Shown: piece after piece, positions 2,949-23,549 of the stretch
Numbering within the stretch: position 1 is the stretch's first letter
Layout of the letters: every line of letters begins with the position of its first letter
Source: Ectocarpus siliculosus
Taxonomy: Eukaryota > Sar > Phaeophyceae > Ectocarpales > Ectocarpaceae
Length of the DNA: 64,000 nt
Direction of reading: 5' to 3'
Assembly: GCA_000310025.1 (NCBI GenBank)
Contig: FN649740.1
Location: 4,021,774-4,085,773 of the forward strand
Translations under genes and position numbers: made by a program
The notes under the pieces: model-generated
What the model was told of the DNA's origin: nothing
Seen by the model: only the letters and a program-made list of their open reading frames with translations
The model's database searches: none

Positions 2949-3381
2949 AGGCTTCCCGCAATTGGGCCGCCAAATTCCCAAAAGTGGCTGGGGGGGGGGG
3001 GGGGGGGTCAGGGTGATTCCTAGTCTATTTTCAAGACACATTTGACCCTTGGTTCTCGCTGTGGTGAGCCCGTCAACCTAGCACCGCCCTCGGACGCACA
3101 GGCCTCACAACGTTGTTCCAGCGCCGGACACGGGTTACACACACACCCTTACGCACCGCAGGCCTCTTTCTGCGCCAAGGGCGTGCACACAACCACAGCC
3201 ACTAGATGATTGATACACCTGGCTTGAATAGCACCCACAACGTCACACCAGCGCAAATCTCACCGCATTCCACCCTTTCAAAAAAAAAAACACAAGACCA
3301 CAAGCCACAAGCCTAAGTCACCACAGCACACAGCACTCTCGCGCACTCCCCCTGGATCGACTTCACGTCCGACTCGACCAT
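2949..3381 (+). repeat. Left terminal inverted repeat of the 14.7-kb transposon
   Basis: About 430 bp that pair with 17160-17614 in inverted orientation, at an estimated 85 % identity by eye. It includes a run of 17 G at about 2991-3007 and a stretch of CAGGCCTCACAACGTTGTT. It ends shortly before the TATA box of the first gene. Confidence 0.85.
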
Positions 3382-3403
3382 AGTCTTCAACACAACCAAG
3401 GCC

Positions 3404-3410
3404 TATATAA
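3404..3410 (+). promoter_or_regulatory. TATA box of the Cys-rich transposon gene
   Basis: TATATAA lies about 50 nt upstream of the ATG at 3460, just inside the left inverted repeat. It is a plausible core promoter; the transcription start is not visible. Confidence 0.4.
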
Positions 3411-3459
3411 GTCAACGTGTCGGGACACTTCATGGACATAGTAGTAACACTTTAGGGAC

Positions 3460-6400: not shown

Positions 6401-8424
6401 ATGTTTCCGTTGGTTATTCCTCTTCGCCCGTCATTACCTACGAGTTCGTCCCTCATGGAATTTTGCGTAATGCATGTGGATGTGTGGGGGTACATACAAC
6501 TGTTTATGTTTTTTCGTTGCGGATTTTGGCAACACTGCTGTTATTGCTGCTAGCATTGGCTGTTATTGGAAGTGCTGTGCATGTCCGGCGTTGTGGTTAC
6601 CCGCGCGGGAGGTACGTGTGGCAAATGATTTATTTTTCCATTGAAGGTCCCCCGAACCGCAGATTTGGTGACCTGTCGCATCATTCCAGAACGTAGCCGC
6701 GCGAGTCCTGAGGACGGATCTGGAGAACGTACCCGTAAATACGAAAAATCGGTCCCTAGAAGCTGTGCTCGGGAGGAAAGCCGCATCTTTCTCCGGCTGC
6801 CTTGGACTTTTGTCATTCGCCAACCGAAGACTGATGTGGCACCTATGGCATATTCCTCATTACTCGTCCGCCCCCCAACAACATGTCGTGCCGCCTGCCC
6901 AAACCGCGTCCGTAGAAAAGCACTCCGCAGGTGTCAGACGCCAAGCTGACCGCGGCAGCCAAAGCCGGCGTCATGGCCAACAACGAGGCACTGATGACCC
7001 TGGTGAAGACCGAGGTCGCAAGTCAAGTACTGCAGCTGAAGACGGGCCTGGAGGCACGGTTGACTGAGATGGAGAGCAGCGCGAAAGCCGACCAAGAGAC
7101 GCGTTTTGGGTCGCTGTTCACCAGCATCCAAAGCGGCTTGACGAACGCATGCGAGCACATCACCGGGGTCGTGAAGGAGAACGGCCGCCAGCTCGACGAG
7201 TGAGTGTTGATGTTTGTTCCTGGAGTGTTTTCGGGGCACCCCACACAAGGGTGGGTGATGCCCCCGCAACGAAGTACCCGATTCGTTGTTCTAGACCTTC
7301 CGGGTGTATGTGGGTGTGCGGCATAAGTTTTTTGTTGTTGTTGTCGTTGTCTACGTGAGTGTTCTGGGAAAGAGGTCGACGAGGGCACCGTTGCGTGCGC
7401 CGCCTTTGGTTTTTGACTCTCCGAGTCGCGAGTAAGTGTTCCGGCTTAGTCGGGTCTTGGGCGTCGTTGGTTAGGGAAACAAGTGCTCCGACAGCCACCC
7501 CATACCCCTCTAACCCCTCCTTCCAACGCTCCAACCCCCCTCTATTTAACTCTCCGCCTCCCGTCCATTCGATCCTCCGCTACGCATCTGCCAAAAACCC
7601 ACAGGAGCATTTCGGGCAACAAGAGAGGCCCCCCATCCAAGACTCCATCGCCGAAAAGGCGCAGTCCGCGTGAGCACGAGGCTACGCGGAGGAGGTGAGT
7701 AATTTGGTTGTGGCCCGTCACCTTTTTCTCCGTCGCTGACGCTTTATAGCATCCACGCAGCCACCGCAAATCGTAAATCAAGACGAGGAAGGTTAGGTTG
7801 TAAAAAGTCGGACTGTCTCTCTTCGTTGGTTCCATTTCGAGAGCTGGTGATACGTTGCAAAGTACCCGCGGATAGACTCAACACCCGCTTCTTTCTGACG
7901 CGTGTCCTGCGTTGTCGTGATGGTGCGTGTCCAGTGACGAACGTGAAGAGGCGACGACGCATGGGGCTCTGGCGACGGTGGATGGTAACACGTTAATGAA
8001 GATAGCCGCTGCAATGGGCACCGCTTTGTCGCAGGGCAACGCCAATCAAGCACGTGTTTCCGACCAGGCCCACAACAACGTCATGGCTCAAGGCACCCAG
8101 TCAATGGGGGGGTTCGTGTCGGTGCCACACAACATGATGCAGGCCCGGGGGGCTGGTGCTTCCACGATGGCGATGATGCAGAACCAGGGGGCGGGTGCGT
8201 CCTCGATGAGGATGATGCCGACCCAGGGGGCGGGGGCGTCGTCGATGGGGATGATGCCGACCCAGGGGGCAGGGGGGTCGTCGATGGGGATGGGTGCACC
8301 CACACAGCGGATGGGTACACCCTCCCAAGGTGCCACCAACCAGAGTGGCTATATGCAGCTTTTCGGGCAACAGAACAACGACCTCAATCAGGGCAATGGC
8401 TATCCTCCCTTCCGATTTAACTAG
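3460..8424 (+). CDS. Transposon gene A: Cys-rich N-terminus, Ala/Lys helical middle, Met/Gln repeat C-terminus
   Basis: Ten exons can be chained in phase: 3460-3895, 4260-4336, about 4593-4661, 5046-5422, 5975-6067, 6154-6219, about 6691-6730, 6930-7199, 7605-7694 and 7935-8424. The N-terminus (about 140 residues) has some 18 cysteines, including CNTNHCCRDC, CGGDMCKLKM and CSPDCGEGGEC, and probably binds zinc. An acidic linker and Ala/Lys-rich helices follow (for example TDAANKWKDNSVEAATKWK). Then comes a basic PSKTPSPKRRSPRE stretch that could be a nuclear localisation signal. The C-terminus repeats MMPTQGAGASSMG four to five times and ends GYPPFRFN. No family recognised. Its position just inside the left inverted repeat suggests a DNA-binding accessory protein. 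The exon at 6691 is the least certain. Confidence 0.6.
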
Positions 8425-9677
8425 GTTGACGATATTTCTGAGCATGCCGGTCAAACGCTTTTGGTTTTTAGTCGATCGCCAAACGGCCCGCCTCAAGGGG
8501 GACGCCTCAAGGGGGTCCTCGTTTTGCGAAGGAAAGTGCAGTCATTTTGGTGTTTTTGTGAGGCGGGTGTGTGTTGTCCTTTTTTTTTACGAGGGGGGGG
8601 GGGGGGTTGCGCGTTTTTAAATTTCGCAATCCNNNNNNNNNNNNNNNNNNNNNNNNNNNNNNNNNNNNNNNNNNNNNNNNNNNNNNNNNNNNNNNNNNNN
8701 NNNNNNNNNNNNNNNNNNNNNNNNNNNNNNNNTAGACTACAAGAAAGAAAGAAGAAGGGGTCGCCATTGGCAGAGGGGGGGGGGGGGGGCGTTTAGGAGT
8801 CGGGGGACGATTTATGTATGCCGTTTGTGTATCCTCTCGTCTATGAAAACACAGGACAGGGCAGGTCAGCTTTCTTCGTGGTACTGGTAGTGGTGGGTTG
8901 TCGTGGTTTCATTTCTTGTGTGGGTACGTGGGCACCCGATACAACGAGTGTAGATCGTTCTAATGTCAGGTGCCAAACGACCCTCGGCGTCGTTGATTGT
9001 GTTGTTCTGTTTTAAGTATCATATCTGCCCTCGTTGGTATGACAGCAGTCGTTGGTATGACAGCAGGCAACAAACGACGCGCAACATCTATCTGCACATG
9101 GTAAACCAGAGTGTAGTAAGGAGAACTGCGCACACTCGCACCAGTGGCGATTCAGCGTCAGGCACTTGTCTCTGTCTACGCTTGTGACGAGGTGGCTTAC
9201 ATCCAAGTTGCGAGCCACCGAAGTTGTTGACCTGTCTCTCCTAACACACGACTTTCGACTCGTGCGTGTAGAAGACATGATCAATGCTTCGAATAATATT
9301 GCAGCAGTGGAGCAGCTGCTTTAAAATAGGGGGTGCTGCCGCGCCCTTGCCGCCAGTCAGTACATGACGTACGACATGAGGTGCGTGGCATCCACACCCT
9401 CGATAGTCTCGGGGGAGCCTGACAAGCACGCTGTGGCAGCTGGCCAATCCTCTGCTGCGGCACCATCCTCCACTCGCCACACGGGCCGAAGCGACCATCC
9501 TACATCCTACTCCGGTCTCCAAAAGCGGCCCCGAACAGCCCGCCGTTGAATTTTTTTTTGCCTTTTGCAACACAGAGACCGGTCCAATCGCATGCTCGAA
9601 CTTGGTCCTTTTTGGGGACCTCTCTCCCATCTCCCACTCCTCTCTGTCACTCCCACGCCCTCTTTCCTTCAGTTGGG
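8425..9677. other. Intergenic stretch inside the transposon
   Basis: No gene seen. It contains the assembly gap, G-runs on both sides of it, and a 17-bp tandem duplication (CGTTGGTATGACAGCAG) at about 9030-9066. The upstream region of gene B would lie here. Confidence 0.5.
8633..8732. other. Assembly gap, 100 N
   Basis: Exactly 100 N between G-rich homopolymer sequence, a conventional fixed-size gap of unknown true length. It falls after the stop codon of gene A. Confidence 0.95.
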
Positions 9678-12600
9678 ATGGGATTCAATTCGCTCTCCCG
9701 CTTGTCTAAAAGCGTGGCTTCGGTCAGGATTGATATTGAAAACGGACAAGGCAAACATCATGTCATCGTCGACGGCGGGTTCCTAAATCACCGCATGTGT
9801 TTGAGGGGGGTAGCGGCGGCAAATTTACTTCTCAACAACGACGTCTCCCGTCAAGTAGAGGAGTGTGCCCGAGATATGAAGCTTTTTGAAGATCGCAATT
9901 TCCTAGTGACGGTAGTGTTCGACGGTCGGCCGCCTCCGGCCAAGAGTGGGACATCTCAACACCGACGAGAAAGGAGGCAGAAGAGTGCACAACAGGCGCG
10001 CGCTCTACACGACGCCGGTGGCTGTCCCGTGGAGATCAACAAGTTGGCCAGCGCTGCTTGTGCTTTCGACGGTCGAGTTACCGCTGAGATCGCAACGCGC
10101 TTGAGAGCCCGTATCAGGGGGGAGGTTTACATCGCCCCAGGCGAAGCGGATCCACAGCTTGTAGTTTTCCAGGACATCCATCTCGCAACAGGGGCGAACG
10201 TGTACGTGTATGCCAATGACTCCGACTTAACAGTTCTTGGGGTACGGGATCTTTTGGTGGAAGTGGTCAAGAACGCGAGAGGAGAGCATGTCGGAAGATG
10301 CGTCCGGCAGAGGCTGCTCTTCCAACCCACCGCATGGTCCTTCCTCCGGAGCGGGGATGCTCATGGTTGGCTGCGCCAGCTGCACGGGATACACCAGCCA
10401 GTTGACGAGGGCTTAGACTACACGCCTCTACCGGAACCGACCGCCCGCCGCCGCCTTCTCTTGTTCGCCATTATCGTAGGCAACGACTTCGCGAAATTCA
10501 AAAATGTCGGACCAGTTACTGCTGCAAGGCTAGCTTTCGTTGACACCGAAAGCGTGTCTGGGCGGCATCTTTGCTACCATTCGATGCGGTTGTGGGATAC
10601 CTGGCCTCAAGGCTGCTGGTGGAGTCCAGGGAGGAGGACACGCCTGCTGTGCGGCGTGAGTTTGAGATCCGACTGCGCGCCTGCCACACCATGTTTACAC
10701 AGCCCGTGGTGTGGAACCCGCTGAGCGGCGAACTCCAACATTTGTCCGGCGCGCCGACCAGGGAGGAAATCACCCGCCATACAGGTCAGTGTTCCGCGTT
10801 TTTGTGTGTGTAAAAATGGGTTAGGTACCTGAGACCAGCTTTTGGTTGATGTTTCCCGACATCACCCTACTTGTAGTCGGGCGCCAGCAGTGAGACCTTA
10901 CACACTAGTAAAATGTGTCCTTTACACTGGAGTCTGCGTGCACAAGGAGGTCTGATGTACCTTCAAACATGCTTTCTACAAAGTAGATTTGCAGGTAAAC
11001 CCACCAATGACCTCGGTCTGGCTTTGCTCGTCCCGTATTACACGGCTCCCGCTGTACTGCATACTGTGTAAGCCTGCCGTACTGAAGCAGATACATTTAG
11101 TGACGGCGTTGCATATACTATCGCCTGAACTCCCTTCACTGTCATGCTCGCATCCTGCACGTACAGGGACGTTGGAGCTATCCCCGCTGGCGTCCCGTGT
11201 GGCCCGGGGAGATGTCTGTCCGCTGACCGGGCGCGAATGGGACCCACCGCTGGGTACAGCACAAGCGAAGGGGCAGGCGGTAGGCGAGGATGCTGGCAGG
11301 CAGAAGAAAAGGGCAACACCCGAGACGGCTAGCACCCGCCCCCCGAATGCTAGCAGCAGGGCGTCTCGCGCTCGAGGTCCTCAAGACACAAACAACTACC
11401 GCGAGCACGGCTTCAGCAGACTCCCGGGGGAGACTGAAGATTACACCAAGTGGACCGTGCCTAAGCTTCGCGAGTTTCTAAGCGTGAGTAAAATATGGGT
11501 TTTTAGCGACATTTTTTCTAGAGAGCTACTGTCAGTAGGGTACTAGTCGGGGAGGGTACTTTACAGTTATGGCTGTGACAGAATATTTGGTCCGTAGACT
11601 ATTACTACTTCGAAATATATTTTGGGTAAAGAGTGCATCCTGTGTTGTAAACTTGGCGCTTCGTCATATTTCAGACTGCCGTTACTGGCTTCCGGGTGCG
11701 CCTGTCGACCATCCAACAGCAGGTTGAGCGATGTACGCACACACGCTTACAAAAGAGACCACACACCACGTTCCGCTTTGCACACAGCGCACTGCGGCTG
11801 CTGTTAGTAAGGTTCGGGGCGGATATCCCGATTGGTTTAAGAAGTAATGTATTTGAAATAGCCCCAAAATGGTACCCCACAAGTTATCACAAGTTGTGCG
11901 ATTTTGGACTGTAGTTAAATTGTTCGCGTACGGTGGGCCACGCTCAGAGCAGATTAAGTACACCATTGGCGCCGGATATGTGCAATTCAGCCCCCCTCGC
12001 AGTATGTTTACGGTAATGGTCACGTTGACCACAAGTCAGATATTGATGTCCGTCAACCACTTCGTTACAGCAGTCGTTCGAACACGGGATTATTGTGCGT
12101 AGGGTAACAACGAACCTACAAGTTTTGGTTTCTTCGCGTTCTGTTCGAGGCAGCGGTGGGGTACGAGATGCACGCGGCAACTGCACGTGGAGATTGCAAA
12201 TTGTAACCGAAGATATACATTGTTCTTCGCCTAAGATAAGCGAGTGGGTTTCGGTGTGCGTCATCAGCTAAGCATGAACATATATGCGCCCCACACGCTT
12301 GGGATTCTCCTCTTGTCGTGTGCATTTCTGCCGTCAGGTTTTTAGGTGTCTCAACAACGCCGGGACCAGTGGGTTCAACAAAGCACTCCTTGCTCAGATG
12401 GCTGGGGATGTCGTCAGGCTGATTAGGAGCTGCGGTGTGTTGGACACCAACTTGGCGTTTCGCCATCCTGTTCCGGACCTCAGCTCTTTTGAGGAAAAGG
12501 AGGCCAGGCTAATGCCGGATCTTCCTGCGACAGGGCTGCGCATAAAGGAGTGGTCCGCTATGCGGCGGTATCTCCCCGAGATATCGAAAGCCGTCATCTT

Positions 12601-13984
12601 ACGGTTCATGGGAGAAGTGAACAAACTCGCCGGCGAGGGCTCGCGGCTCTGGTATAGATCGCTGCAGCGGGTGTTGGACATGGGGAACCTCAGCAGGTTT
12701 TGGGCCGCTCCGGCAGCGGGGGGCATTATGTGGATTGGGACTAGGTGAGGCGCACGAAATGCACCCCGCCTGGAAGGAGGATAGGCATATACTGCTTCGC
12801 GTTGCCGTCATATTGTTTCCGGTGTGTGTTCTAACGTTATGTTTTGATGTTCGGATTACTTAGATGGAGTATGCTTGATCTAGTCCCGACGTACGATTCG
12901 ACGGTGACAGCCCAGCATATTGCCACCCGGGCCTGTGTGCATCATGCGCACACGTACTTTCCGTTGCATTCGTGCTTTTCTGCCTTGACCATGTTTACAA
13001 CCGTGTAGATGTTCCCGTCGGAATGACGATGATGCCAGCATCGTACACAAAACAAGTTACCCTCTACGATACTCGAGGGACAGACCCGGTCCCCCACGTG
13101 TTCTTGCCTTGTTTCCCCGCACGTCATGACGGTGCGGTACGCTGCATTTCGTTGACTTTGTTTTCGATCGTTGCCTGCTCCGTCAGCAACGTTGTAGTGG
13201 AGATTAAAAACTCGAAAATGAAAGACTGCGCCTAACAACCTTCCCATCCCGATGAAATCATCTCCAACTGATAACACACAGCGCGGGCGCCTCCTTCTCG
13301 GCCGACAAGGAGTACCGCGTCCGCATCAAACTACGAGTGGAAGAAGTGGATGAGAGCGCACCCCCGACGGAGCAAGAAGAGAAGGAGGGGGAGGAAGAGG
13401 AGGAGGTCGTGGGCAATGACCCGCGGTCGGCGCAAACCCTGGTAGCCCTGGAGGTCATCGCGGCTCTCTGCGAATGTCCTGCAGGCATTAAGGGGGGGTG
13501 CTCCCACGCCGCCATGGCGCTGTTTTTAGGTAGACTGCTCCAGATGTCTGAAGAACAGCTAGTCACGTTCAATCCTACCACGTGTACGGGAATGGCATGC
13601 CGCTGGATAATGCAGCATGGCAAGGGTTCTCGATCGGCCAAACAGCAGTGCGAGCTATACGGCATGAGTATGTCGGTAGGAACCACGGTCGTCCGGAGTG
13701 TTCGGGACCCGAAAGGGAATGTAGGATGGGACGACGACAAACAAGTCCACGCGAGTGGGGTTCCACCCATAGATCGAATGAACCAATTCAACCCGCATCC
13801 TACCGGGGGAATGTGGGCCGCACGCAATGTGCACTTCGATGCTGGCGAGGACATCAGCAAACTCAAGAGGGACAAATTAATGGCGTTCGTAAATCACGAG
13901 AGGCGATCGGACCACCAAGAGGTGTGCCTGGATTATCTACCGTCAAGAGTACGCGAAGAAAACAATTCTGCACACTGTGGGTAG
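9678..13984 (+). CDS. Transposon gene B: FEN1/XPG-like nuclease fused to a SAP-like motif and a SWIM zinc finger
   Basis: Exons chain in phase at 9678-10784, 11167-11483, 11675-11722, 12338-12744 and 13282-13984, giving about 860 residues. The N-terminus has the flap-nuclease acidic residues in order: VIVDGG (D32), VFDGRPPPAKSG (D82), APGEADPQ (E156, D158), ANDSDLTVLG (D181, D183) and VGNDFAKFKNVGP (D270, then a helix-hairpin-helix-like segment). Next are a basic linker, a SAP-like motif (WTVPKLREFLS, split by an intron), a helical region and, in the last exon, an acidic stretch followed by the SWIM motif CECPAGIKGGCSHAAMALF. One frameshift near 10545-10570 separates GNDFAK...VDTES from LLPFDAVVGYLASRLL; no intron fits. 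Start chosen at the Met before GFNSLSRL; an upstream in-frame extension is open. Likely role: DNA processing during transposition, replacing the YqaJ nuclease usually joined to SWIM. Confidence 0.7.
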
Positions 13985-14852
13985 CCACGTTGAAAAGTGC
14001 TTGCGTGTGCATTCGTGAAGTGATTCTGTGTATGTGGCGGGCGGGGGTCGTGGGTTGCTGTAGTTGTCACGACCCAAGCTGGGGCGTGTTTCTCTCTTGC
14101 CCGGAGGGGAACTTGGTGGAGGAATGCGGTACAAGAGGAGGGAGGGGGGCGGAGGGGGGGGGGGGGGGGAACCTTTTTTTTTTTTATGGATTTAGGCTAA
14201 TTTTGCACCTGGGCCTGCCTGGGGATACAACATGGTGTTTTCCGCTACGAAGTATGTGTTACTCTCGTCTTGAAACCCTTTGACACCGATTCTACGCTGT
14301 GATGCGAATACCCCGATGCCTAAAATACAACGTTACAAAAATCGACGACAGGTTGCACTCTTCAACCCCAATACCCTATTCTTCGCACTGTGTCGCACGG
14401 GGAGCCAGCAAGATGCACGAAACCTCTAACATGGCACCGAAACACGGGGTTCGGTTGTGCCAAGCCCTAGGCAATATACAGTTCGATGAGGTCGTCATCC
14501 TAGGCGTCTTCCCGTTTCCCGTGTTAACATTCGCACGCTCGCTGTTCGCCGCGTTACCTTACGTCCCACGAGGACAGCACTGACGCTGCAAGAGATTCAT
14601 CTTGTTCCGTCCCCAAGGAAATTCCAGACGCGATAGTCTAACTCCAACATAAGGATGTCCAACGTTCACGAGGGTTACCAAACAAAGAGTGTTCCGTCCG
14701 AGGCCTGGAAACAACCGATGCAAGTCATGGGCCGGTATGCCGTTCACCAACCCAACACTACGCCCGAAAAAAGAACTCGTTTCTCAGCAAAAAAGAAACA
14801 ACTCTAAACTCCAACAGGAGATGAAGAAAGAAATAAGAGAAGACTAACAAAT
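13985..14852. other. Spacer between convergent transposon genes B and C
   Basis: No coding signal seen. It contains a G-run at about 14153-14170 followed by a T-run. The two genes converge here, so polyadenylation signals for both should lie in this spacer, but I could not pick them with confidence. Confidence 0.4.
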
Positions 14853-17143
14853 TTACTTATCGCTCTTGAACGGCTGCTGAATCATGTTTACTAGAGCTGC
14901 AACCACATGGAAGCACATCTCCAAGTGATCGAGTTGCTTATGGTTGAATCTCTTGTCGACGATGCTCCACTTCTTCATGGCCCCGATTGCCCGCTGTACA
15001 TGAATGCGCAAATTCGCTACCTTCCAGTTGGATTCCATGTCGGCTTCAGTGAACTGCTTCTCCTTCTGCCGCTTGTAAGGGGGCGCCACGTACAGGAAAC
15101 CTTCCTCGATCAACAACGGCGACAAAGAATTGAACCCCTTGTCCGCCATGACCATGAGGCCTTCGTGATCAAGACCATTGTCCCTCATGGCGTCGACAAG
15201 ACCAGACGCCTTTACAACCTCAACATCGGACATCCTACCGGGATACGCGGGCCCAATGTAACAAATCGCACCCCCAGGGGTGACCGCGACAAGTAATTTC
15301 GCCGTCTGTCTGCCCTTGTACGTGGAATATGTGATCCAGTTACAGTCAGTTTGCCAAGACCTGCAAATTTCTATCTCAGTGGCGTCCAGAACTAGAACAC
15401 ACTTTGCATACCCATGATCGACAAAGTTCTGCGGGACGAACTCGTCCACCTCTGCTAAAGTAGGAAGCCGAACCAAAGGCCGAAGACTACGCCAAAGGAA
15501 GTTTAACCACGTCGTGAACGCCCTCCCCCCGGTAGTGGACACCAAACAGGGCCGATGCCACCACAATCGGCGTTGCGGTGCGCAGGATCATCAAAGTGAA
15601 AAAAAGTCCGTTCACTCCCCGAAATATCTTTCGCCTCTGCTCAACCCTTGTCCCGTCTGCTGTTATCCCGCCTCCCTCTCGCTGGTCATAGAACACCATA
15701 TTCTCCGCCTGACCCTCAGCATCCAGGAACTCGTACAACTTCTGCAGGCGGTGGCACGTGGGGTGATGACGAAGATGCGACAAAGGTAGCATTGCGGGTA
15801 TCAGCACATGAAAACTATTTGCATGACTCGGGTGACAGTAGATATCACATGAAATATTATGACTGCATCCGACTGGCGCGGAGTCTTCGTGACCTTTCGT
15901 TGCCGTTAAACGAAACACGAACCCTCCATTTTCCCAACAGAAGAGCAGCAACAGCAGCAGTCACCCTATAGAGGCGAAAAACAACAAGGGTCGATCCGAA
16001 CTCTGCTAGATTGGTAGCGAAATCAATACAATGGAAGGAACTTACATACCGCACTGCCGCGCTATCTCATGCTCGACGAGAAATATGTCACTATGGCCTT
16101 TTATGTCAAGAACAACGATGTACGCGCTGCTGTATGCATGACAATGTATGCATTCTTCAGCAGCGGTCATTGGAGCATATGCTTATTTTACAACTAACTG
16201 CTGCTGTGTCGGCGGCATGCAGTAATGTGGCGTGCTCGTCGCTTGCGGAACTGGCCGGTTTAGAGAGAGACAGAGCGAGAGACAGAGGGAAAGAGAGGGA
16301 GAGAGAGGGAGGGACACATGGGCAGAGAGCGACAGAGCGATTGACAGAGAGAGAGAAAGAGAAAGAGAGAGAGAGAGAGAGACACACACACACAGCGAGA
16401 GCCAGAGAGAGACGGAGAGTCGTGCAGCCGGCCGACCAAGCAAGCAAGTGCTAGGACCTACAAACATGTATTGACCAAGCAAGTGCTAGCACATATCCTA
16501 CGTTACGGACGGTCTTGGGTACTCTGATTACACGCACAAGCCTCAGAACACTTACCTCGAGAGACTCATGGTCCCTGAGACCGACGAGGGAGCGAACTCC
16601 CACAGGCTGTACAGAACGCAGTAAGTTGTGGTCGATCCCAATCACACCAGGGGCTGTTCCTGCCGCGTCCTTTGCACTCCTCTCGTTCTGCTTCGCTTCC
16701 TTAAGCTCCGCCTTCAGCACCGAGATGCGTAGCCTAAGCTTCCTCGCCTCGCCATTGAGTCGTCGCTGTTCCTCGTTGTCATCCAGCAGTGCTGCCCTGT
16801 ATCTTGTCACCAGAGCATCGGACTTCCGACTCCTTGCAAGGGCACCCCTCGAAGCATTGAACATTTCGTCGCTTGACTGGTCTGGCAGAGCTCCATCTTT
16901 AACCCTTACACCCAACGTACTACCATCCACCGAGTTGATAGTGTTCTCGGCTTCCAGGCTCCCAGGTGGGAAGTGAGCAGCGGAAATCCTTGCGTCGCGT
17001 ACTGGCCTCGGGAGGTCGCTCCGGCCGAAAAGGGCGTGGCACCAGCTTGCTCTCTTCTCAGGGTCAATCGGCATCCGTATGGTTGCGTGTCCGCCGTCTA
17101 CTCGGCAAAATTCAGTATCACAGACGCACTTGTGGTTCCCCAT
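14853..17143 (-). pseudogene. Transposon gene C: THAP-like/HTH/DDE transposase, frameshifted, catalytic Glu changed to Gln
   Basis: Exon 1 (17143-16556) starts MGNHKCVCDTEFC. It has a THAP-like pattern ending DARISAAHFPPGSL, where the usual third Cys before the His is missing, followed by an Arg/Glu-rich coiled coil. After a GTAAGT donor, exon 2 starts at 15741 in phase 0 (KLYEFLDAEGQAENMVFYDQ) and leads into a helix-turn-helix (SALFGV / TTGGRAFTTWLNFL). That motif is split by a one-base frameshift at about 15535-15550. The DDE_Tnp_4 domain follows: VLDATEIEIC (first Asp), YSTYKGRQTAKLLVAV, MADKGFN (second Asp). The third acidic residue, expected in a VERAIG-type motif, is Gln (HVQRAIGAMKKW; CAG codon at 14994-14996). 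Stop at 14853. Probably inactive. Confidence 0.8.
16263..16405. repeat. GA-rich microsatellite in the transposase intron
   Basis: An interrupted GAGA/GACAGA run with a short (CA)n at its right end, within the intron between the two transposase exons. It gives spurious Arg/Glu or Ser/Leu open frames. Confidence 0.85.
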
Positions 17144-17159
17144 CGGGGTGTCGGTCGCA

Positions 17160-17614
17160 GCAATCGAGTCGGATGTGAAGGCGATACCGGAGAATACCGG
17201 AGAGAGTGGGTGTGGATTGCTGCCTTGGTGCTGTGGTTGCTGTCGCTGTGGCTTGTTGTGGCTTGTGTTTTTTGTTTTTTGTTTGAAAGGGCGGAATGCG
17301 GTGAGATTTGCGCTGGTGTGACGTTGTGGGTGCTATTCAAGCCAGGTGTATCAATCATCTCGTGGCTGTTGTTGTATGCACCCCCTTGGCGCAGAAAGTG
17401 GCCTGCGGTGCGTAAGGGTGTGTGTGTAACCCGTGTCCAGCGCTGTAACAACGTTGTGAGGCCTGTGCATCCGAGGGCGGTGCTAGGATGATGAGCCCAC
17501 CACAACGAGAACCTGGGGGCAAATGTGTCTTGTAAATAGACTGGGAATCGGCCTGACCCCCCCCCCCCCCCACAGCCACTTTTGGGAATTTGGCGGCCCA
17601 ATTGCAGGAAGCCT
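17160..17614 (-). repeat. Right terminal inverted repeat of the 14.7-kb transposon
   Basis: Inverted partner of 2949-3381, including the C-run at about 17559-17571 and the outer GGCCCAATTGCAGGAAGCCT. The transposase start codon at 17143 lies immediately inside it. Confidence 0.85.
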
Positions 17615-17665: not shown

Positions 17666-17737
17666 CTGTGAGGTGGTTCTCGCTGAGCCGCAGCCACTGC
17701 AGCTGTCGGAGATCTCCTAGCTCTGGCGGGATGTTGC
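17666..17737 (-). CDS. LRR cassette 10 with a GC donor
   Basis: A 72-nt exon, core LGDLRQLQWLRLSENHLTG, acceptor TGGCAG. The donor reads GCACCT rather than GTACCT as in its direct duplicate, cassette 15 (18657-18728). It may use a GC-AG intron or be weakly spliced. It is the first cassette right of the transposon. Confidence 0.7.
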
Positions 17738-17855
17738 CTGCCAGACGAAGGGAAAATAAGAAGTGGGCGAGAGAAAAACGAAATTAATCCCCCCGGCGTC
17801 TAGAAAAACGATCCTGCCAACGCATACACGGGATTCATCCTGCACGACTTCTCAC

Positions 17856-17927
17856 CGGCCAGCTGGTTATTCGAAAGATAGAGAGACTTCAGTGCCTCGA
17901 GCTCTCCCAGCTCCGGGGGAATGGGCC
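17856..17927 (-). CDS. LRR cassette 11
   Basis: Intact 72-nt exon, core LGELEALKSLYLSNNQLAG, acceptor CTCCAG, donor GTGAGA. A truncated near-copy is at 18316-18358. Confidence 0.75.
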
Positions 17928-18018
17928 CTGGAGCGAAGTGCAAGCAGGAATTCAGCGGAAATTGAGAGGGGGGAAACATAAAATTTCCCGGCTTCTAGAA
18001 AAGCAGTTACTCACACTT

Positions 18019-18045
18019 AATGGACGCCAACGCGTTAGCGTCCAT
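18019..18045. repeat. Palindrome, type B arms with ACGCGT core
   Basis: AATGGACGCCA, core ACGCGT, then TAGCGTCCATT. It shares the GGACGCCA arm of the type-B sites, but the centre is ACGCGT instead of ACTAGT. Confidence 0.8.
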
Positions 18046-18112
18046 TCACGCGGTGGCGGGGCACAAAATATGTTCGAGAAAAAAAAGTATTCAAATGTCA
18101 TCAGTCTCTCAC

Positions 18113-18184
18113 CGCTGAGCTGGTTGATGGACAGGTCGAGCCGCGTGAGCTTATTGAGAGCGCCGAGCTGCGCCGGGATCGCAC
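18113..18184 (-). CDS. LRR cassette 12
   Basis: Intact 72-nt exon, core LGALNKLTRLDLSINQLSG, acceptor CTCCAG, donor GTGAGA. Sister of cassette 8. Confidence 0.75.
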
Positions 18185-18256
18185 CTGGAGAAGAGTAACA
18201 CATTAGCGGGGGATATAGAAATAAATCACCCGGCTCTCTTATTTCAATATCACCGA

Positions 18257-18300
18257 TCTCCGTAGATCTTGTCCCGCCAACGCATACACGGGATTCATCC
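18257..18300. repeat. Chimeric junction: type-A half joined to type-C half
   Basis: The left side is GATCTCCGTAGATCTTGTCC (type A). After CGCCAACGCAT it continues as ACACGGGATTCATCC, the right half of the type-C palindrome family. It is no longer self-complementary. Confidence 0.8.
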
Positions 18301-18315
18301 CGCACGACTTCTCAC

Positions 18316-18358
18316 CGGTCAGCTGGTTATTCGAAAGGTAGAGAGACGTCAGTTCGTG
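18316..18358 (-). pseudogene. LRR cassette 13, 5'-truncated copy of cassette 11
   Basis: Only the C-terminal part remains (LTSLYLSNNQLTG plus a GTGAG donor). The sequence diverges from cassette 11 abruptly at about 18358. No acceptor. Confidence 0.7.
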
Positions 18359-18464
18359 GGTGAGTAGGTGTTAAGGAAGCGATCGGCTGAACATTTCTCT
18401 AGAAGGCGGGACATTTTTCGTGCTTACCCCCGCTGAATAAATAAGTCTCGTCTTTTCGCTGCAG

Positions 18465-18536
18465 GTGCCATCCCAACGGAGCTGGGGAGCCTGGCAGCAG
18501 TGCAAAAGCTTTACCTCGGGTGCAACCAGTTGAGCG
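18465..18536 (+). CDS. LRR cassette 14, intact, plus orientation
   Basis: A 72-nt exon, core LGSLAAVQKLYLGCNQLSG, acceptor CTGCAG, donor GTGAGT; antisense to the receptor gene. Confidence 0.7.
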
Positions 18537-18568
18537 GTGAGTATCTAAAATTTTGTGATCGAATTTTA

Positions 18569-18604
18569 GGATGAATCCCGCCATCGCATTGGCGAAATTC
18601 ATCC
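18569..18604. repeat. Type-C palindrome
   Basis: GGATGAATCCCGCCA and TGGCGAAATTCATCC form arms around TCGCAT. The flanking CATGGACCAATGC shows the uninserted state of the intron that received the 14.7-kb transposon at 2949. Confidence 0.8.
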
Positions 18605-18656
18605 ATGGACCAATGCTAGAAAAAAATTAAGCCGACCATCAATGTAAAAAAGGTAC

Positions 18657-18728
18657 CTGTGAGGTGGTTCTCGTTGAGTAACAGCAGCTGCAGCTGTCGG
18701 AGATCTCCTAGCTCTGTCGGAATGTTGC
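18657..18728 (-). CDS. LRR cassette 15
   Basis: Intact 72-nt exon, core LGDLRQLQLLLLNENHLTG, acceptor TGGCAG, donor GTACCT. Exon plus flanks (about 18600-18800) are a direct duplicate of 17615-17810. Confidence 0.75.
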
Positions 18729-18891
18729 CTGCCAGACGAAAGGAAAATAACACGTTGGCGGGAGAACACAAAAATTAATCACCCGGTGTCTAGAAAAACG
18801 GTCCTGCCAACGCATCGACGGAATTTCATGTATACATCAATATTTTGTTCAAAAGTCGAAACAAATTTCAAGCCCGATCTGAAGGACTCAC

Positions 18892-18963
18892 CGTCTAACT
18901 TGTTCCAGCTGAGGTCCAGGATCTCCAAGGTGCTTAGATCTCCTAGCTGTGGTGGGATGGGTC
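18892..18963 (-). CDS. LRR cassette 16
   Basis: Intact 72-nt exon, core LGDLSTLEILDLSWNKLDG, acceptor TACAG, donor GTGAGT. Confidence 0.75.
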
Positions 18964-19028
18964 CTGTAGATCGGGCATCAAAGCATTTTATTGATATCCG
19001 AAATAACATAGGTTGATTATAGACACGC

Positions 19029-19072
19029 GATCTCCGTAGATCTTGTCCCGCGCACTGCATACACGGGATTCA
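19029..19072. repeat. Chimeric junction: type-A half joined to type-C half
   Basis: GATCTCCGTAGATCTTGTCC followed by CGCGCACTGCATACACGGGATTCAT. Same kind of A/C hybrid as at 18257-18300, at a different cassette boundary. Confidence 0.75.
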
Positions 19073-19097
19073 TACTACACTTGAACAAACAACTCAC

Positions 19098-19169
19098 CGG
19101 ATAGCTGATTACTCCGAAGATTGAGCCATCGCAGCGCTGTGAGCTTTCCCACCTCCGGTGGGATGGCCC
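19098..19169 (-). CDS. LRR cassette 17
   Basis: Intact 72-nt exon, core VGKLTALRWLNLRSNQLSG, acceptor GTGCAG, donor GTGAGT. Confidence 0.75.
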
Positions 19170-19232
19170 CTGCACGCAGAAGAGTTGTCCGAACACGGGG
19201 GAATATATTACAATTGCCCGCTGGCTTTTGTC

Positions 19233-19270
19233 GATCTCCGTAGATCTTGTCCCGCCCACTAGTTGGCGTC
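19233..19270. repeat. Chimeric half-site junction left of cassette 18 (A-left / B-right)
   Basis: Type-A left arm GATCTCCGTAGATCTTGTCC, core ACTAGT at 19258-19263, then the type-B arm TTGGCGTCC. It forms a pair with the B-left/A-right junction at 19512-19553. Confidence 0.8.
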
Positions 19271-19347
19271 CTCTTGAAAATCGAGAGGCGGGATAATATT
19301 TCTTGTTTTTTTGTCGCGCTTGATTTGTATCGCCCTCCTGCTCGCAG

Positions 19348-19419
19348 GCCCCATCCCGCGGGAGCTCGGGAACCTCGCAGCGCTACACGACCTCAGCCTT
19401 GGAAACAACGAGCTAAGCG
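19348..19419 (+). CDS. LRR cassette 18, intact, plus orientation, inside an opened palindrome
   Basis: A 72-nt exon, core LGNLAALHDLSLGNNELSG, acceptor CTCGCAG, donor GTGAGT. With its flanking introns it makes a 259-bp unit (19264-19522) lying between two ACTAGT hexamers. The outer sequences are the two halves of a type-A palindrome and the inner ends are type-B half-sites. Confidence 0.75.
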
Positions 19420-19511
19420 GTGAGTTATGGAGAGCAACATGATACTTGCATGATATTTGCAAATTCGGAGGAGACAAAAGAAAAATCCCCGCGCTTTCCG
19501 TACAAAAGTTT

Positions 19512-19553
19512 CGTGGACGCCAACTAGTTGGCGAGACAAGATCTATGGAGATC
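19512..19553. repeat. Chimeric half-site junction right of cassette 18 (B-left / A-right)
   Basis: Type-B left arm CGTGGACGCCA, core ACTAGT at 19523-19528, then a diverged type-A right arm GAGACAAGATCTATGGAGAT. Reciprocal to 19233-19270. Confidence 0.8.
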
Positions 19554-19623
19554 CGTTGTCTTGAAAATTGAGAGGTGGAAATTTTTTAATTTCCCCCAGC
19601 AAACATGTGATACTCGTCTGCAG

Positions 19624-19695
19624 GTGCGATCCCTGCGCAGCTCGGCGCTCTCACTACGCTCATGGTGCTCAACCTGTCCGACAACGAGTTAGATG
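19624..19695 (+). CDS. LRR cassette 19, intact, plus orientation
   Basis: A 72-nt exon, core LGALTTLMVLNLSDNELDG, acceptor CTGCAG, donor GTGAGT. Confidence 0.7.
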
Positions 19696-19784
19696 GTGAG
19701 TCCCGGAGATCGACCGTGAAATATTTTTTCGACTTACAAGAATGATCCGCATTAACCTCCCGCTGTCTAGAACATCGGTCACGC

Positions 19785-19917
19785 GTACTAGGCGAGTACA
19801 AAATTTCACAATTGCGGAACTCGCGGGACATCTTTTGCTACGCGTTGGCGTCCGTGGGTGCGTAGGCGAGTACGAAATTTCACGATTGCGGAACTCGCGG
19901 GACATCTTTTGCTACGC
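19785..19917. repeat. Two type-D elements in tandem
   Basis: Two 58-59-bp copies (19785-19843 and 19860-19917) of the element at 912-969, in inverse orientation to it, separated by GTTGGCGTCCGTGGGT, a type-B-like arm. Confidence 0.75.
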
Positions 19918-19958
19918 ATCGGCGGGATCATCTTGGAAACTTGAACTAAATTACTTAC

Positions 19959-20030
19959 CAGTTAGTTCGTTCGCCCGAAGGTCGAGGTACTCCAGTACGG
20001 CGAGCCGTCCAACCTCCACGGGGATGGGAC
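19959..20030 (-). CDS. LRR cassette 20
   Basis: Intact 72-nt exon, core VGRLAVLEYLDLRANELTG, acceptor TTGCAG, donor GTAAGT. It is the first minus cassette downstream of the N-terminal exon. Confidence 0.75.
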
Positions 20031-20123
20031 CTGCAATCGGAAGAGACAGAACGAAAACACAGTACCCATAATGTAGCGGGAAGAATCAAAGCTAAATACC
20101 CCGGCTTCTAGAAACACCTAGGA

Positions 20124-20198
20124 GTCCCACGAGTTCCGCAATTGGGAAATTTCGTACTCGCCTACGCACCCACGGACGCCAACGCGTTGGCGTCCGTG
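20124..20198. repeat. Type-D fragment fused to an ACGCGT-core palindrome
   Basis: 20124-20167 is a truncated type-D element. It runs into CACGGACGCCA, core ACGCGT, TGGCGTCCGTG (20171-20198), a perfect type-B-like palindrome. A cassette (21) begins about 90 bp to the right. Confidence 0.75.
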
Positions 20199-20285
20199 CG
20201 TGCGTTGGTGGGTAGGTGTTTCTAGAACCCGGGTATTTAACTTTTAATCCCCGCTCAAAATTCGAATGTGCCCATCTGCTTGCAG

Positions 20286-20357
20286 GCCCCATTCCGCCGG
20301 AGCTGGGGAACCTTGCGGCACTGAAGGAGCTCTCCCTTTCGAGTAACCAGCTCAGCG
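20286..20357 (+). CDS. LRR cassette 21, intact, plus orientation
   Basis: A 72-nt exon, core LGNLAALKELSLSSNQLSG, acceptor TTGCAG, donor GTGAGG. Confidence 0.7.
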
Positions 20358-20534
20358 GTGAGGCACAGAAATATCTGGTACGACCCTTCTCAAGTTTTGA
20401 AGCCTTGAAGTTTATCATGAATCCCTTTCGACTTCAACAGATACCCGTATGGACGCCTGGGCGGGCGTCATGCCCGTTTCGATGGAAACGGGTGATTGCT
20501 TTTGGAAACGACATTGTCGAACTTTGGACTTCAG

Positions 20535-20607
20535 GCCCCATCCCCGCTGGAGCTGGAAAATCTTGCAGCACTGCAGATCCTCAACCTTGCAGGCGACCAG
20601 CTGCGCG
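20535..20607 (+). pseudogene. LRR cassette 22, plus orientation, frameshifted and donor lost
   Basis: Acceptor TTCAG is present, but an extra C early in the exon (73 nt) breaks the frame. The end reads CTGCGCGTCGCGG where GCGGTGAG is expected. The core LENLAALQILNLAGDQLR is still readable in the shifted frame. Confidence 0.65.
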
Positions 20608-20650
20608 TCGCGGAGGCTAGTACATGCACTAGAAGCCGGCCGGGTCATTT

Positions 20651-21247
20651 TTGTTTATTCCCCGCCGACCCTGCCGACGTCTAGAATACATCCGTATTTT
20701 TGACACCACACGGCACTTGCCACATTTTTCCAGGCATGGCTGGGACAAACAAAAACGGATGGATGTCAGCACGGAAACCAACCACCAAGCCTGTGGGGCC
20801 AGTGCGGAACAGGTTTATCGTGGAGAATATACTCCAGAGTACAACGTGCGCCGCATCAGAGCCCTGCAAAAGAAGAGATACCGAAGGTCCCCAGCGTACC
20901 AGAGGCCCTTGGAAGCCAGGAAAAGTGATGTGCTGTACAGGTGGCGCGTGTTCAAGGAGCAAGCTCAAATTGTAGGAGGCGAAACATTGCAGTGTCGATT
21001 AGCTTGGACGAATAGTCTACAGCCTGCTGGTACTACGGGGAATTCACATACACACGAGGGGTACTCAGGCGTAGACCGTGTGCAGAACACGGGAACGTAC
21101 GAAAGAGACAACGTTATGGCGTGTTGTAAGACTTGCAACTTCATGAAACAGCCACTGTCGGTCAAAGAGTTCTTGGGGAAGGTCAAAGAGATTGCAAGAA
21201 AGAAATCGAAGAATAATACCTTGGAGGTTGTTGTTCCACAGAGATAG
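20651..21247 (+). CDS. HNH-endonuclease-like ORF in the first intron of the LRR gene, antisense
   Basis: The open frame ends with a segment typical of virus- and intron-associated HNH nucleases: GVDRVQNTGTYERDNVMACC, then KTCNFMKQPLSVKEFL (the CxxC-N part and downstream helix). The usual N-terminal CxxC zinc pair before GVDR is not visible, so it may be degenerate or need another exon. The start is uncertain. The stop (21245-21247) overlaps the last 28 nt of the LRR N-terminal exon on the other strand. Whether it is expressed is unknown. Confidence 0.45.
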   Translation: MFIPRRPCRRLEYIRIFDTTRHLPHFSRHGWDKQKRMDVSTETNHQACGASAEQVYRGEYTPEYNVRRIRALQKKRYRRSPAYQRPLEARKSDVLYRWRVFKEQAQIVGGETLQCRLAWTNSLQPAGTTGNSHTHEGYSGVDRVQNTGTYERDNVMACCKTCNFMKQPLSVKEFLGKVKEIARKKSKNNTLEVVVPQR

Positions 21248-21394
21248 CTTCACCACGCGGCCCTGGGAGTTGACTTCGACTCTGTACCATTGCGAGAGGG
21301 CGGCACTAGTGTTCCAGTTTTGATTATTCTTCCACTTAACCCCACCGGTCGCGTTGTATAGGGCAACCAGCGCCTTGCGGTCCGTCTGCGCCAT
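21220..21394 (-). CDS. N-terminal exon of the LRR receptor (LRR_NT-type cap)
   Basis: It starts MAQTDRKALVALYNATGGVK and continues WKNNQNWNTSAALSQWYRV, ending LSLWNNNLQ plus one base before a GTATTA donor. This is the usual start of Ectocarpus ROCO-type LRR proteins (DR.ALV.LY.ATGG..W....NW) and makes the LRR N-cap. The phase-1 end matches the acceptor phase of every 72-nt cassette. No clear signal peptide precedes it, so a cytosolic receptor is likely. The GTPase and effector domains are outside the window. Confidence 0.75.
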
Positions 21395-23549
21395 CTTGTA
21401 GAAGGGGGCCTGGGTATGCGGAAGTTTGCGAGACGTTCGCAAAGACAAACATTTGTTCAAAGAACTCATGTACCATCGATTTCTGTTGGTCGTCTCTCGC
21501 GACTGAAGTGGTGAATCACACACCACCATCACAAGAGGATGATCGCATCAAAGAACCACAACAACGTCTTCGAGCGCGAACAATCTCGGTGATGTGCCAA
21601 CGATGAACGATGCAACACCATTGCGGCGGGATCAACAACGCAGTCTACAACAGACAACAGAGGATAGAGGAACAACAGAATAGACCCACCTTTTCTTTGC
21701 AGTTTGCACTTTGCACAAGCGCGGTAGCGGGGAACAGCTGGAACCTGCCGTTCCCTTTTATTACGGCACCGTTCTCGTCGTATGGATGCTCTCTTTACGG
21801 TGGACTAGAGCGCGGTGAATGCTCCTTGCTGAACTCTAACCAGATGCTACCGCTGACTGAATCAACCGAATCAGTGCTATGTGACATGCATAGACTACAG
21901 ATAGATGTACGCCTCCTTGAAAACAGGGGGACATGTAGATCGCCGACAGCCCCAGTACCAACCAGCAAGACCAGTAACCTGGTAACACGATCACGGACAG
22001 CCGGAAAGCTCAGCTAGGCCGGACGTAATCCCAACAAAGGATGTCAGCTCACGGTGGAGCAGGTGTGTGAGTACCCACTGGCAGTGGTTTGGGGGCGTGT
22101 CCAAGGCTTCATTCACTATACACAGCAGTACCTCGCGATCTCAAGTGTGGCCTCCAAAGTTGAACTTTCACCGCCGTTGCGCCGTTGCTCGGCGCACTGA
22201 ACGAAAACACTCCGCCTCTGAGATCACCTTGGTCGCCTCTGCCCCTCTCTGCAAGGGGGAGCCTTCGCGATGGAAGTCTACGCTTGGCTACCGGAGCTGA
22301 TGCTCCTGTAGCGGATGTAAGGTAGGCACAGCAGTTCGGAGCGATTGCGGCGCCAACATGATGCTTTGTCACGTGTGTACCGACACAAGATACCACACCC
22401 CCTGCATCGATGTTCAAAGCTCGAGTGCTCCACGACGAAAAGGCTGGAGAATAAAACAAATGATACGGCTTCGGAAAGCTCTCGATGAAACGTTTCTAAC
22501 GCCGACTTTTTCGACGCTATCACGCATTTTTTGTTGCTATGGAGTTCTGCCCAGAGGGCTTTGAAGTTTGGTCCAGAGGGGGTGTGATATCTTGTGCAAC
22601 CAACGGTACACATCTAGCCTATCTGACGATGTGGTGGTGCGCGACCACAAGAGTTGTTACGTGCCCTCGGCCTGCGGATGGAACGGTTTTTCTCACCTAA
22701 CAACGAAGTGGATCTGGTGTGGAAGGGTTGGCCCGTGTTGTCGTGAGTTGTTTTCAACGGCGAACCCCCGTACGCGGCGCGCCTCGCACGAAATGCTGAG
22801 CTTTGAGACACTAGGTATACTGGTACTGGGGCTGTCGGCCGTGACCGATCTACAGCAGTACATGTGTACATGTCTCCGCGTTGCACCCTTGGGTGCACGG
22901 AGGTTTGCATGCTCACCGCCCACTCACAGCAATATTTGGGTAGGTCCTGCCCTTGCTTGCTCATGTCTTGTACGGCAGTTGACGAAGGAAGAAAAATGTA
23001 ACACGGTAGTTGTATTGCGTTGTGCATCCAGCAGACGAAAATATGAAAATATGCGGGTGTGCAGCTACTCCTTGAAGTCTATCCTGTCGCCGACTGTGAC
23101 GCCCATCGGTCCCCTTCCCAGTTGGTTTTTCAGCAGAGAATAACATGCTCCACCGTTTGCGCCGACCTGCGCAATATCCTAACCTAGGCATAAACATTGT
23201 TGTTTATGTTGGTGTTGTGCAGAATCCCGGTGCGTACGTAGTATTGACGCGTGTGATACGAGTTGTTTGTTGCTAAAAGATGGCAGTGAATCCCCTCCCC
23301 CACCCTTACGGAGGGGCTCGCATCGATTGACCTCACCAACACCACCAGGTGGGTTTTTCTATGTAAATCAATGTTACTCGGCGGAGTGAACAGACTATCG
23401 ATGTGCATATCCACCTTACAGCACCCTCCCATGGTCACAATACGCGATGAAATACGTATGCATTTTCGACACTGTTTCATCGACGACATCCCATCCGTGT
23501 CTGAAACATCGCGTGGTTCATGGACCGAGCAGCACTGGCGGTCGACCTC
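21395..23549. other. Intergenic stretch upstream of the LRR gene
   Basis: No convincing gene. It contains the promoter side of the LRR receptor (transcribed leftward) and a TIR element at 22374-22613. Open frames here lack recognisable domains or splice support. Confidence 0.4.
22374..22613. mobile_element. Small TIR element of the CGACACAAGATA family
   Basis: The left end GTGTACCGACACAAGATACC and an inverted right end (ACAAGATATCACACCCCCT on the complement) enclose about 240 bp with no gene. Related to 41526-41743 and to fragments at about 34540-34915 by the shared inner ends (TTTCAAAGC) and the internal TCCACGACGAA. Confidence 0.65.

Follow-up and report, generated by a model that had tools for sequence, protein, structure and literature searches.

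Single-exon LRR cassettes with defined ends and palindromic intron junctions in Ectocarpus siliculosus

The LRR locus of the window and cassette 18

The window, the whole stretch of DNA analysed here, comprises 64,000 nt of the brown alga Ectocarpus siliculosus (C15:4021774-4085773; the genome assembly has 189 Mb in 492 contigs). The genome has a large EsV-1-7 family, a marker of brown algae: of 880 candidates 150 were scored and all 150 matched, against 0 in 14 control genomes. The window contains an LRR locus with a first exon, a constant flank and two array parts in which LRR exons stand in both orientations. The features are listed below by position in the window, with the strand where one applies; A and B denote two types of cassette end.

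1051-2862, second array part, 8 LRR exons (7 in the stricter set), mixed orientation
1197-1218, 1700-1721 and 2445-2466, A/A junctions in the second array part
17666-20357, array of 11 LRR exons, mixed orientation (7 on the minus strand, 4 on the plus strand)
19098-19169, minus strand, LRR exon of the left-neighbour cassette; the left A arm (19233-19257) forms the 5' end of this cassette
19250-19271, left junction of cassette 18, TCCCGCC-CACTAGTT-GGCGTCC
19265-19521, plus strand, cassette 18, GGCGTCC...one LRR exon...GGACGCC, the recombining unit as judged from copies elsewhere and homology ends
19348-19419, plus strand, LRR exon of cassette 18, 72 nt, AG...GT, GPIPRELGNLAALHDLSLGNNELSG, antisense to the gene with exon 1 at 21218-21394
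19515-19536, right junction of cassette 18, GGACGCC-AACTAGTT-GGCGAGA
19624-19695, plus strand, LRR exon of the right-neighbour cassette; the right A arm (19529-19553) forms the 5' end of this cassette
20174-20195, boundary B/B junction, GGACGCC-AACGCGTT-GGCGTCC
20201-22297, minus strand, constant 5' gene flank, with 88.9% identity to L001 over 2182 nt
21218-21394, minus strand, exon 1, an LRR N-cap exon (MAQTDRKALVALYNATGG...NNLQG/GT)

The gene is presumably transcribed on the minus strand through the array, and cassette 18, on the plus strand, would therefore be antisense to it. Exon 1 terminates in G/GT, a phase that matches the cassettes, and comparable N-cap exons occur in 10 other stretches of our sample. 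The window shares its flank with two paralogous LRR genes on C476, L001 (about 470-479 kb) and L002 (about 512-520 kb), which lie ~42 kb apart. This common flank starts at or beside the boundary junction at 20174-20195, namely at 20201 for L001 and at 20184 for L002, and window positions 20184-21147 are 90.2% identical to L002 over 992 nt.

Other elements lie in or near the arrays. An element of ~14.6 kb at about 2949-17614, with inverted ends at about 2949-3023 and 17541-17614, interrupts the LRR array within the 3' flank of one cassette and shows an apparent 2-bp AT duplication. It encodes a DDE_Tnp_4 transposase (ORF 14853-15587, minus strand) and has an XPG_N match (ORF 9423-10724, plus strand), and we take it to be probably a large PIF/Harbinger-like DNA transposon. 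Two exonless units of ~60 bp at about 19789-19846 and 19860-19919 (GTAGGCGAGTACGAAATTTCAC...GACATCTTTTGCTACG) are flanked by junction-like ends. The same stretch forms the outer 5' part in several cassette classes and matches alone at more than 20 of the 51 places found in a search with a 252-bp cassette (see below); the recognised feature may be the cassette ends rather than the exons. TACCGCC repeats, both tandem and dispersed, occupy 58940-60200, towards the right of the window, and are, as far as seen, unrelated to the LRR arrays.

The initial annotation placed ACTAGT at 19258-19263 and 19523-19528 around a 259-bp interior, framed by type-A arms at 19233-19257 and 19529-19553. All these coordinates are correct, and the interior holds, as proposed, one complete LRR exon with its splice sites AG and GT. 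The inverted pair 19233-19271 / 19515-19553 shows 92% complementarity across 39 nt. In the window the A half-site has 10 matches at ≤3 mismatches (mean of 100 shuffles 0.00), and the B half-site plus ACTAGT has 13 (shuffle mean 1.58). The true ends of cassette 18 are GGCGTCC (19265-19271) and GGACGCC (19515-19521). The two arms of the proposed type-A palindrome belong to the neighbouring cassettes, whose 5' termini they form; such a structure arises from any two A-type 5' ends placed head to head.

Three close copies of cassette 18 were found by genome search, at C4:4688366-4688624 (97% identical), C4:1891478-1891736 (94%) and C5:1696880-1697112 (97%, with an N gap cutting off the right end), and a weaker relative (79%) lies inside the window at ~2190-2426. 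When cassette 18 and its three close copies were aligned with 90-nt flanks, matching ceased at GGCGTCC in the four sequences readable on that side and at GGACGCC in the three readable on the other, and each copy has different neighbours. The left spacers are CACTAGTT, CATGCGTT, GATGCGTA and TACTACTT; the right spacers are AACTAGTT, AACGCAGTT and AACTGCGTT, the fourth being unreadable. The copy at C4:1891478 (stretch L030, plus strand) has the orientation of the N-cap exon of its stretch, and the copies in the window and in L008 are opposite to theirs.

Cassettes and junctions in the genome

Stretches were sampled at A half-site hits (19), at LRR-exon hits (13), at B-like hits (10) and elsewhere (8). 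The main counts use 30 stretches plus the window, 31 in all, and leave out the eight others; L004, L019 and L020-L029 were excluded because they lack an LRR exon or hold an unrelated repeat only. The 31 stretches contain 312 LRR exons, 154 on the plus and 158 on the minus strand, and 278 of these have both AG and GT. All 312 conform to one layout of 72 nt, one LRR per exon and uniform phase. Since the stretches were chosen by half-site or LRR exon, the counts apply to arrays of this kind and not to the genome. A protein query with one LRR exon gave 405 candidates, of which the best 150 were scored, so the LRR exons of the genome exceed those in the sample.

The half-sites are closely tied to LRR exons. 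At ≤2 mismatches, 51 of the 52 genome hits of the A half-site lie in stretches with LRR exons (the exception is C4:238260, in L019), as do all eight exact hits of the B-type sequence GGACGCCAACTAGT. Neither set lies mainly away from LRR exons, a distribution that the initial annotation had named as counting against its proposal. When one mismatch is allowed, the B pattern has 36 genome hits (8 exact, 28 with one mismatch) versus 52 for the control, and these hits are mostly due to chance. Dispersed GCGCGTTGGCGTCCA sites were considered as cassette ends and rejected, as all ten sampled (L020-L029) belong to one unrelated repeat. Its copies match over up to the full 1.6 kb sampled, are 93-98% identical to each other and contain GCGCGTTGGCGTCCA by chance.

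The proposal made from cassette 18, in which a single LRR exon forms a recombining unit whose ends are defined, is strongly supported by fixed units, by homology that ends at junctions and by copies elsewhere. In pairwise BLAST of exons with 350-nt flanks, homology ends in one of two places: immediately beyond the exon, or at the edge of the cassette, ~60-120 nt 5' or 40-80 nt 3' of the exon. The 312 exons fall into 33 classes with 199 members and 113 singletons; 15 classes have at least four members, and most of the 14 that were aligned are, by eye, conserved across a fixed unit and drop outside it. Homology ends lie ≤12 bp from a junction centre in 590 of 1123 cases on the 5' side and in 592 of 1113 on the 3' side, where uniform placement gives 82 and 107; the pairs, at least 80% identical with their flanks, are non-independent, and only sides with a scored junction were used. 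A 252-bp cassette is 100% identical between C15:2427091 and C11:4814678 and has seven further, nearly end-to-end copies at 92-96% identity. The neighbours of such identical or near-identical copies differ from the junction outward. Blocks that exceed one cassette are also common to several loci. Solitary mobile cassettes at the junction hits C20:1521699 and C25:662871 are not claimed, since stretch L043 contains a second copy in inverse orientation together with an LRR-like remnant, and stretch L044 is cut by an N gap.

The cassettes carry a short inverted motif on both sides, reading inward GT-N-GGCGGGA or variants such as GGCGTCC, GGCAGGA and CGCGGGAT. At the near-palindromic junction, TCCCGCC/GGCGGGA-like inverted arms flank a spacer, mostly of 8 bp (N-A-Y-GC/TA-R-T-N), so that inverted half-sites around a short spacer stand at the segment boundaries in the manner of a shufflon. 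There are 264 neighbouring exon pairs, with 263 intervals free of N. The junction score exceeds the 95% point of first-order shuffles in 194 of these intervals and the 99% point in 145 (55%); the matrix for the ends was built manually from observed ends, which makes this scoring partly circular, and the homology ends and the genome pattern search are more independent checks. The 69 intervals without a junction above the 95% null reflect either junction decay or an incomplete model. Junctions are present in 176 of 227 intervals of mixed-orientation stretches and in 16 of 33 of near-uniform ones. Genome-wide, the junction pattern TCCCGCCNANNNNTNGGCGGGA occurs at 24 sites with ≤1 mismatch versus none for the reversed control, and 23 of the 24 are within ~600 bp of an LRR exon (the exception is C2:7349650, in L045).

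Spacers of the 194 scored junctions measure 8 bp in 145 cases, 9 bp in 35, and 7 bp and 10 bp in 7 each. The central dinucleotide of the 8-bp spacers is self-complementary in 133 of 145 (GC in 110, TA in 23). A spacer half is predicted by its own arm in 58% of cases and by the partner arm in 34% (shuffled mean 32%, maximum 37.5%). Spacer halves thus follow their own arm and not the partner, which points to joining at the spacer centre. Two near-identical cassettes (L005:5531, L009:2381) differ in their cores, TA versus GC.

Orientation, turnover and divergence of the cassettes

Relative orientation is random: adjacent exon pairs are ++ in 66 cases, -- in 70, +- in 62 and -+ in 66. The 151 adjacencies between classed cassettes are of 131 distinct kinds; of 96 class pairs, 27 are found in two or more relative arrangements. 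Of the 52 pairs whose flanks are at least 98% identical (7 of them within one stretch), 26 share the assembled strand and the other 26 lie on opposite strands.

The paralogues L001 and L002 show where constancy ends. Their flanks are 94.3% (1763 nt) and 92.4% (1267 nt) identical on one side and 90.2% (978 nt) on the other, and include edge cassettes of classes 23, 11 and 14. Between the flanks only scattered matches of 146-391 nt remain, at 69-86% identity and in changed order and orientation. The flanks common to L001, L002 and the window stop ~20 nt or less from junctions. In the comparison of the window with L001 and L002 the flank on the exon-1 side is common and no match to the other flank was found. 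Constant flanks next to a variable LRR cassette region, the layout of the lamprey variable lymphocyte receptor (VLR) loci, are thus present on both sides in L001 and L002 and on the exon-1 side in the window.

Intactness was counted in 13 stretches with 11 N-cap exons, L009 and L013 being taken as continuations of L034 and L031. Intact exons number 80 of 86 in sense and 57 of 65 in antisense to exon 1 (Fisher P 0.27), among exons recognised by an exon finder that misses strongly decayed ones in both orientations. Decay of antisense exons is therefore a weak trend that is not significant (P 0.085 with a stricter score). Antisense pairs diverge by 16.3% in hypervariable codons, 2.9% in the rest of the exon and 4.6% in the intron; for sense pairs the values are 15.1%, 2.8% and 4.1%. 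Because intactness differs little between antisense and sense exons and the divergence pattern is the same, we read these data as cassettes flipping or moving between genes faster than silent copies decay.

Divergence was examined in 68 independent close pairs, with L038:3431 / L008:1956 omitted for a misframed exon. The codons of residues 13, 14, 16, 18 and 19, on the concave face, differ at 160 of 1020 nt, the other exon codons at 94 of 3672 and the intron flanks at 311 of 8377, and change at the concave-face residues is thus diversifying. For brown-algal ROCO LRRs positive selection is reported at sites 14, 16, 18 and 19 (Teng et al., 2024; PMC11378527). These are the residues that vary in the close pairs if the published count begins at the first whole codon. 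Three pairs (L002:5200 / L038:2074, L030:1860 / L008:2893 and L008:2451 / window:19348) differ by 3-4 nt in the exon, mostly at or near hypervariable codons, and have intron flanks that are identical or nearly so. Such differences suggest very strong selection or local hypermutation.

Possible mechanisms and known systems

Across these loci, cassettes have been copied from one locus to another with their ends retained, and have been joined at random with respect to both order and orientation. We consider it probable that the genes consist of a constant first exon and an array of interchangeable LRR exon cassettes with defined ends. The locus would then be a brown-algal LRR gene in which the first exon is followed by cassettes of roughly 200-280 bp, each made up of one 72-nt LRR exon, short intron flanks and inverted end motifs. 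Breakage or recombination would occur at the centre of the junction palindrome, where released or copied cassettes would be rejoined in either orientation and sometimes imprecisely (spacers of 7, 9 and 10). Since exon length and phase are the same throughout, sense cassettes would splice into a new LRR solenoid; antisense cassettes would stay silent within introns and could act as a reservoir. The array genes presumably encode receptors. For the joining itself we tentatively favour break-and-rejoin at palindromes, by an endonuclease or a domesticated recombinase, over classical transposition, with a confidence that stays short of even. It is conceivable, though doubtful, that brown algae keep their LRR receptor genes under continual, perhaps somatic, reconstruction by a dedicated exon-cassette recombination system that is independent of orientation, works at the palindromic intron junction and draws on silent and active cassettes from the whole genome. 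Such a system would be a natural counterpart of a symmetric-site scrambling array.

The cassettes could instead be non-autonomous, MITE-like DNA transposons that carry an exon and insert into junctions with target-site duplication. As in DNA transposons and MITEs, both cassette ends have an inverted terminal motif, and copies occur end to end at dispersed loci. ACTAGT stands on both sides of cassette 18, and the initial annotation had explained this by a unit that entered an A palindrome at its ACTAGT and duplicated 6 bp of the target. As a rule this is unsupported. The 6-mer at the junctions is variable (ACTAGT, ACGCGT, ATGCGT, ACGCAGT and others), and no duplicated spacer was found at the other copies of cassette 18, the two that are readable at both ends having unequal spacers. 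Among 129 cassettes with both junctions scored, the left and right cores are equal in 54, an excess over the 43.3-43.7 expected across all loci (P 0.003-0.04) that would suit insertion, but one that vanishes against the 52.0 expected from same-locus pairs (P 0.36), for which the null was drawn from distinct junctions of one locus. Full spacers are equal in 3 of the 129, versus 1.8 expected within the same locus and 1.0 across all loci, and the three measures of left/right match gave 54, 14 and 3 where the same-locus values are 52.0, 12.7 and 1.8. An excess across all loci without one within loci indicates that cores cluster by locus, with no excess, and no target-site duplication, at the level of the single cassette. 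Neighbouring junctions are also no more alike in their cores (0.42) than those 2 to 6 apart (0.37, 0.43, 0.37, 0.38, 0.35), and the junction sites are located in LRR arrays (23 of 24) and not scattered. The window's DDE transposase belongs to the inserted 14.6-kb element that interrupts a cassette. Transposition of this kind appears distinctly unlikely to us.

Conservative site-specific recombination at a symmetric site, by a serine- or tyrosine-type recombinase, would produce orientation-blind inversions, deletions and exchanges, and the site layout, the mostly self-complementary central dinucleotide, the random orientation and the spacer halves that stay with their own arm all agree with it. 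Spacer length and core vary, however, and near-identical cassettes carry different cores, where a strict recombinase would be expected to preserve them. Copy number grows, so copying would be needed in addition, and profile searches of the genome gave only one partial serine-resolvase (PF00239) and one partial tyrosine-recombinase (PF00589) match, at C16:5122087 and C76:55488 and neither linked to the arrays. On balance this explanation is unlikely. We regard it as very unlikely that the arrays arose through unequal crossing-over and gene conversion of the ordinary kind between homologous introns and exons, the MITE-like palindromes being incidental residents of the introns. Loci do share blocks longer than one cassette, and unequal crossing-over together with a retrotransposon is the explanation given for the 90-bp-exon LRR genes of Tetrahymena (PMC6564038), but these processes are not expected to flip exons at random or to end homology at a 22-bp motif common to otherwise unrelated ends, and the breakpoints observed here are concentrated at junctions. 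Collapsed or scrambled repeats joined at short palindromes by the assembly would be the least probable source of the pattern, and a highly improbable one. Repeats and palindromes are difficult to assemble, N gaps lie in or beside several arrays (L003, L005, L032, L044), and error at single junctions is possible; against this, a mostly constant 8-bp spacer and recurring ends are found in 31 stretches, many on megabase contigs, the ends are class-specific, and the pattern has 24 sites versus none in the control.

The preferred reading, interchangeable exon cassettes joined at a palindromic junction, has partial parallels in known systems. Bacterial shufflons and the loxPsym sites of synthetic yeast place symmetric sites between segments and allow orientation-independent rearrangement, as the arrays here appear to do. 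The arrays differ from them in their variable cores and in the eukaryotic, intron-located junction. Lamprey VLR loci have constant flanks and a reservoir of LRR cassettes in both orientations, from which cassettes are copied somatically into one gene to give a modular LRR receptor. Constant flanks and cassettes in both orientations are shared with the arrays described here, but in the alga the cassettes serve as exons of genes in the assembled genome and are joined within introns.

Brown algae reportedly have exon-shuffled LRR genes of the ROCO family, described by Zambounis and colleagues in 2012. COR-A, from the ROC-COR domain of the ROCO family proper, was matched in our genome search, which gives a lower bound, only at C17:274385 and at no array, and membership of the arrays in the ROCO family is accordingly not supported. 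In the 9.9 kb beside this COR-A match the LRR patterns applied here gave no hit and the junction one weak match, and two 8-kb NB-ARC stretches lack both. According to the published account, brown-algal LRR genes have one LRR per 72-bp exon and undergo intense exon shuffling, and LRR-only genes are named as a possible reservoir (Teng et al., 2024; PMC11378527). The ROCO LRR genes resemble our arrays in the 72-bp LRR exon, the phase layout and the variable sites 14, 16, 18 and 19; the account differs in that its available sections describe neither defined ends for cassettes nor a palindromic junction, and no randomness of orientation (PMC11378527). In Tetrahymena, too, LRR exons of one length and phase stand in tandem and near-identical exons occur in different genes, but the available part of that report describes no defined ends of exon units and no mixed orientation (PMC6564038). 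LRR exon shuffling in brown algae is thus already published. The defined junction is apparently new: a search of published titles and abstracts, with subscription papers and preprints outside its coverage, found no description of the junction, the cassette ends or the random orientation.

Controlled somatic recombination has been hypothesised for brown-algal immune repertoires, and the same account states that neither a recombined locus nor a site-specific recombinase has been reported (PMC11378527). The defined 22-bp junction, the cassette ends and the paralogous loci make this proposal directly testable. Beyond vertebrate V(D)J and lamprey VLR, the LRR arrays of Ectocarpus siliculosus would then offer a eukaryotic case in which exons travel as units whose ends are specified.
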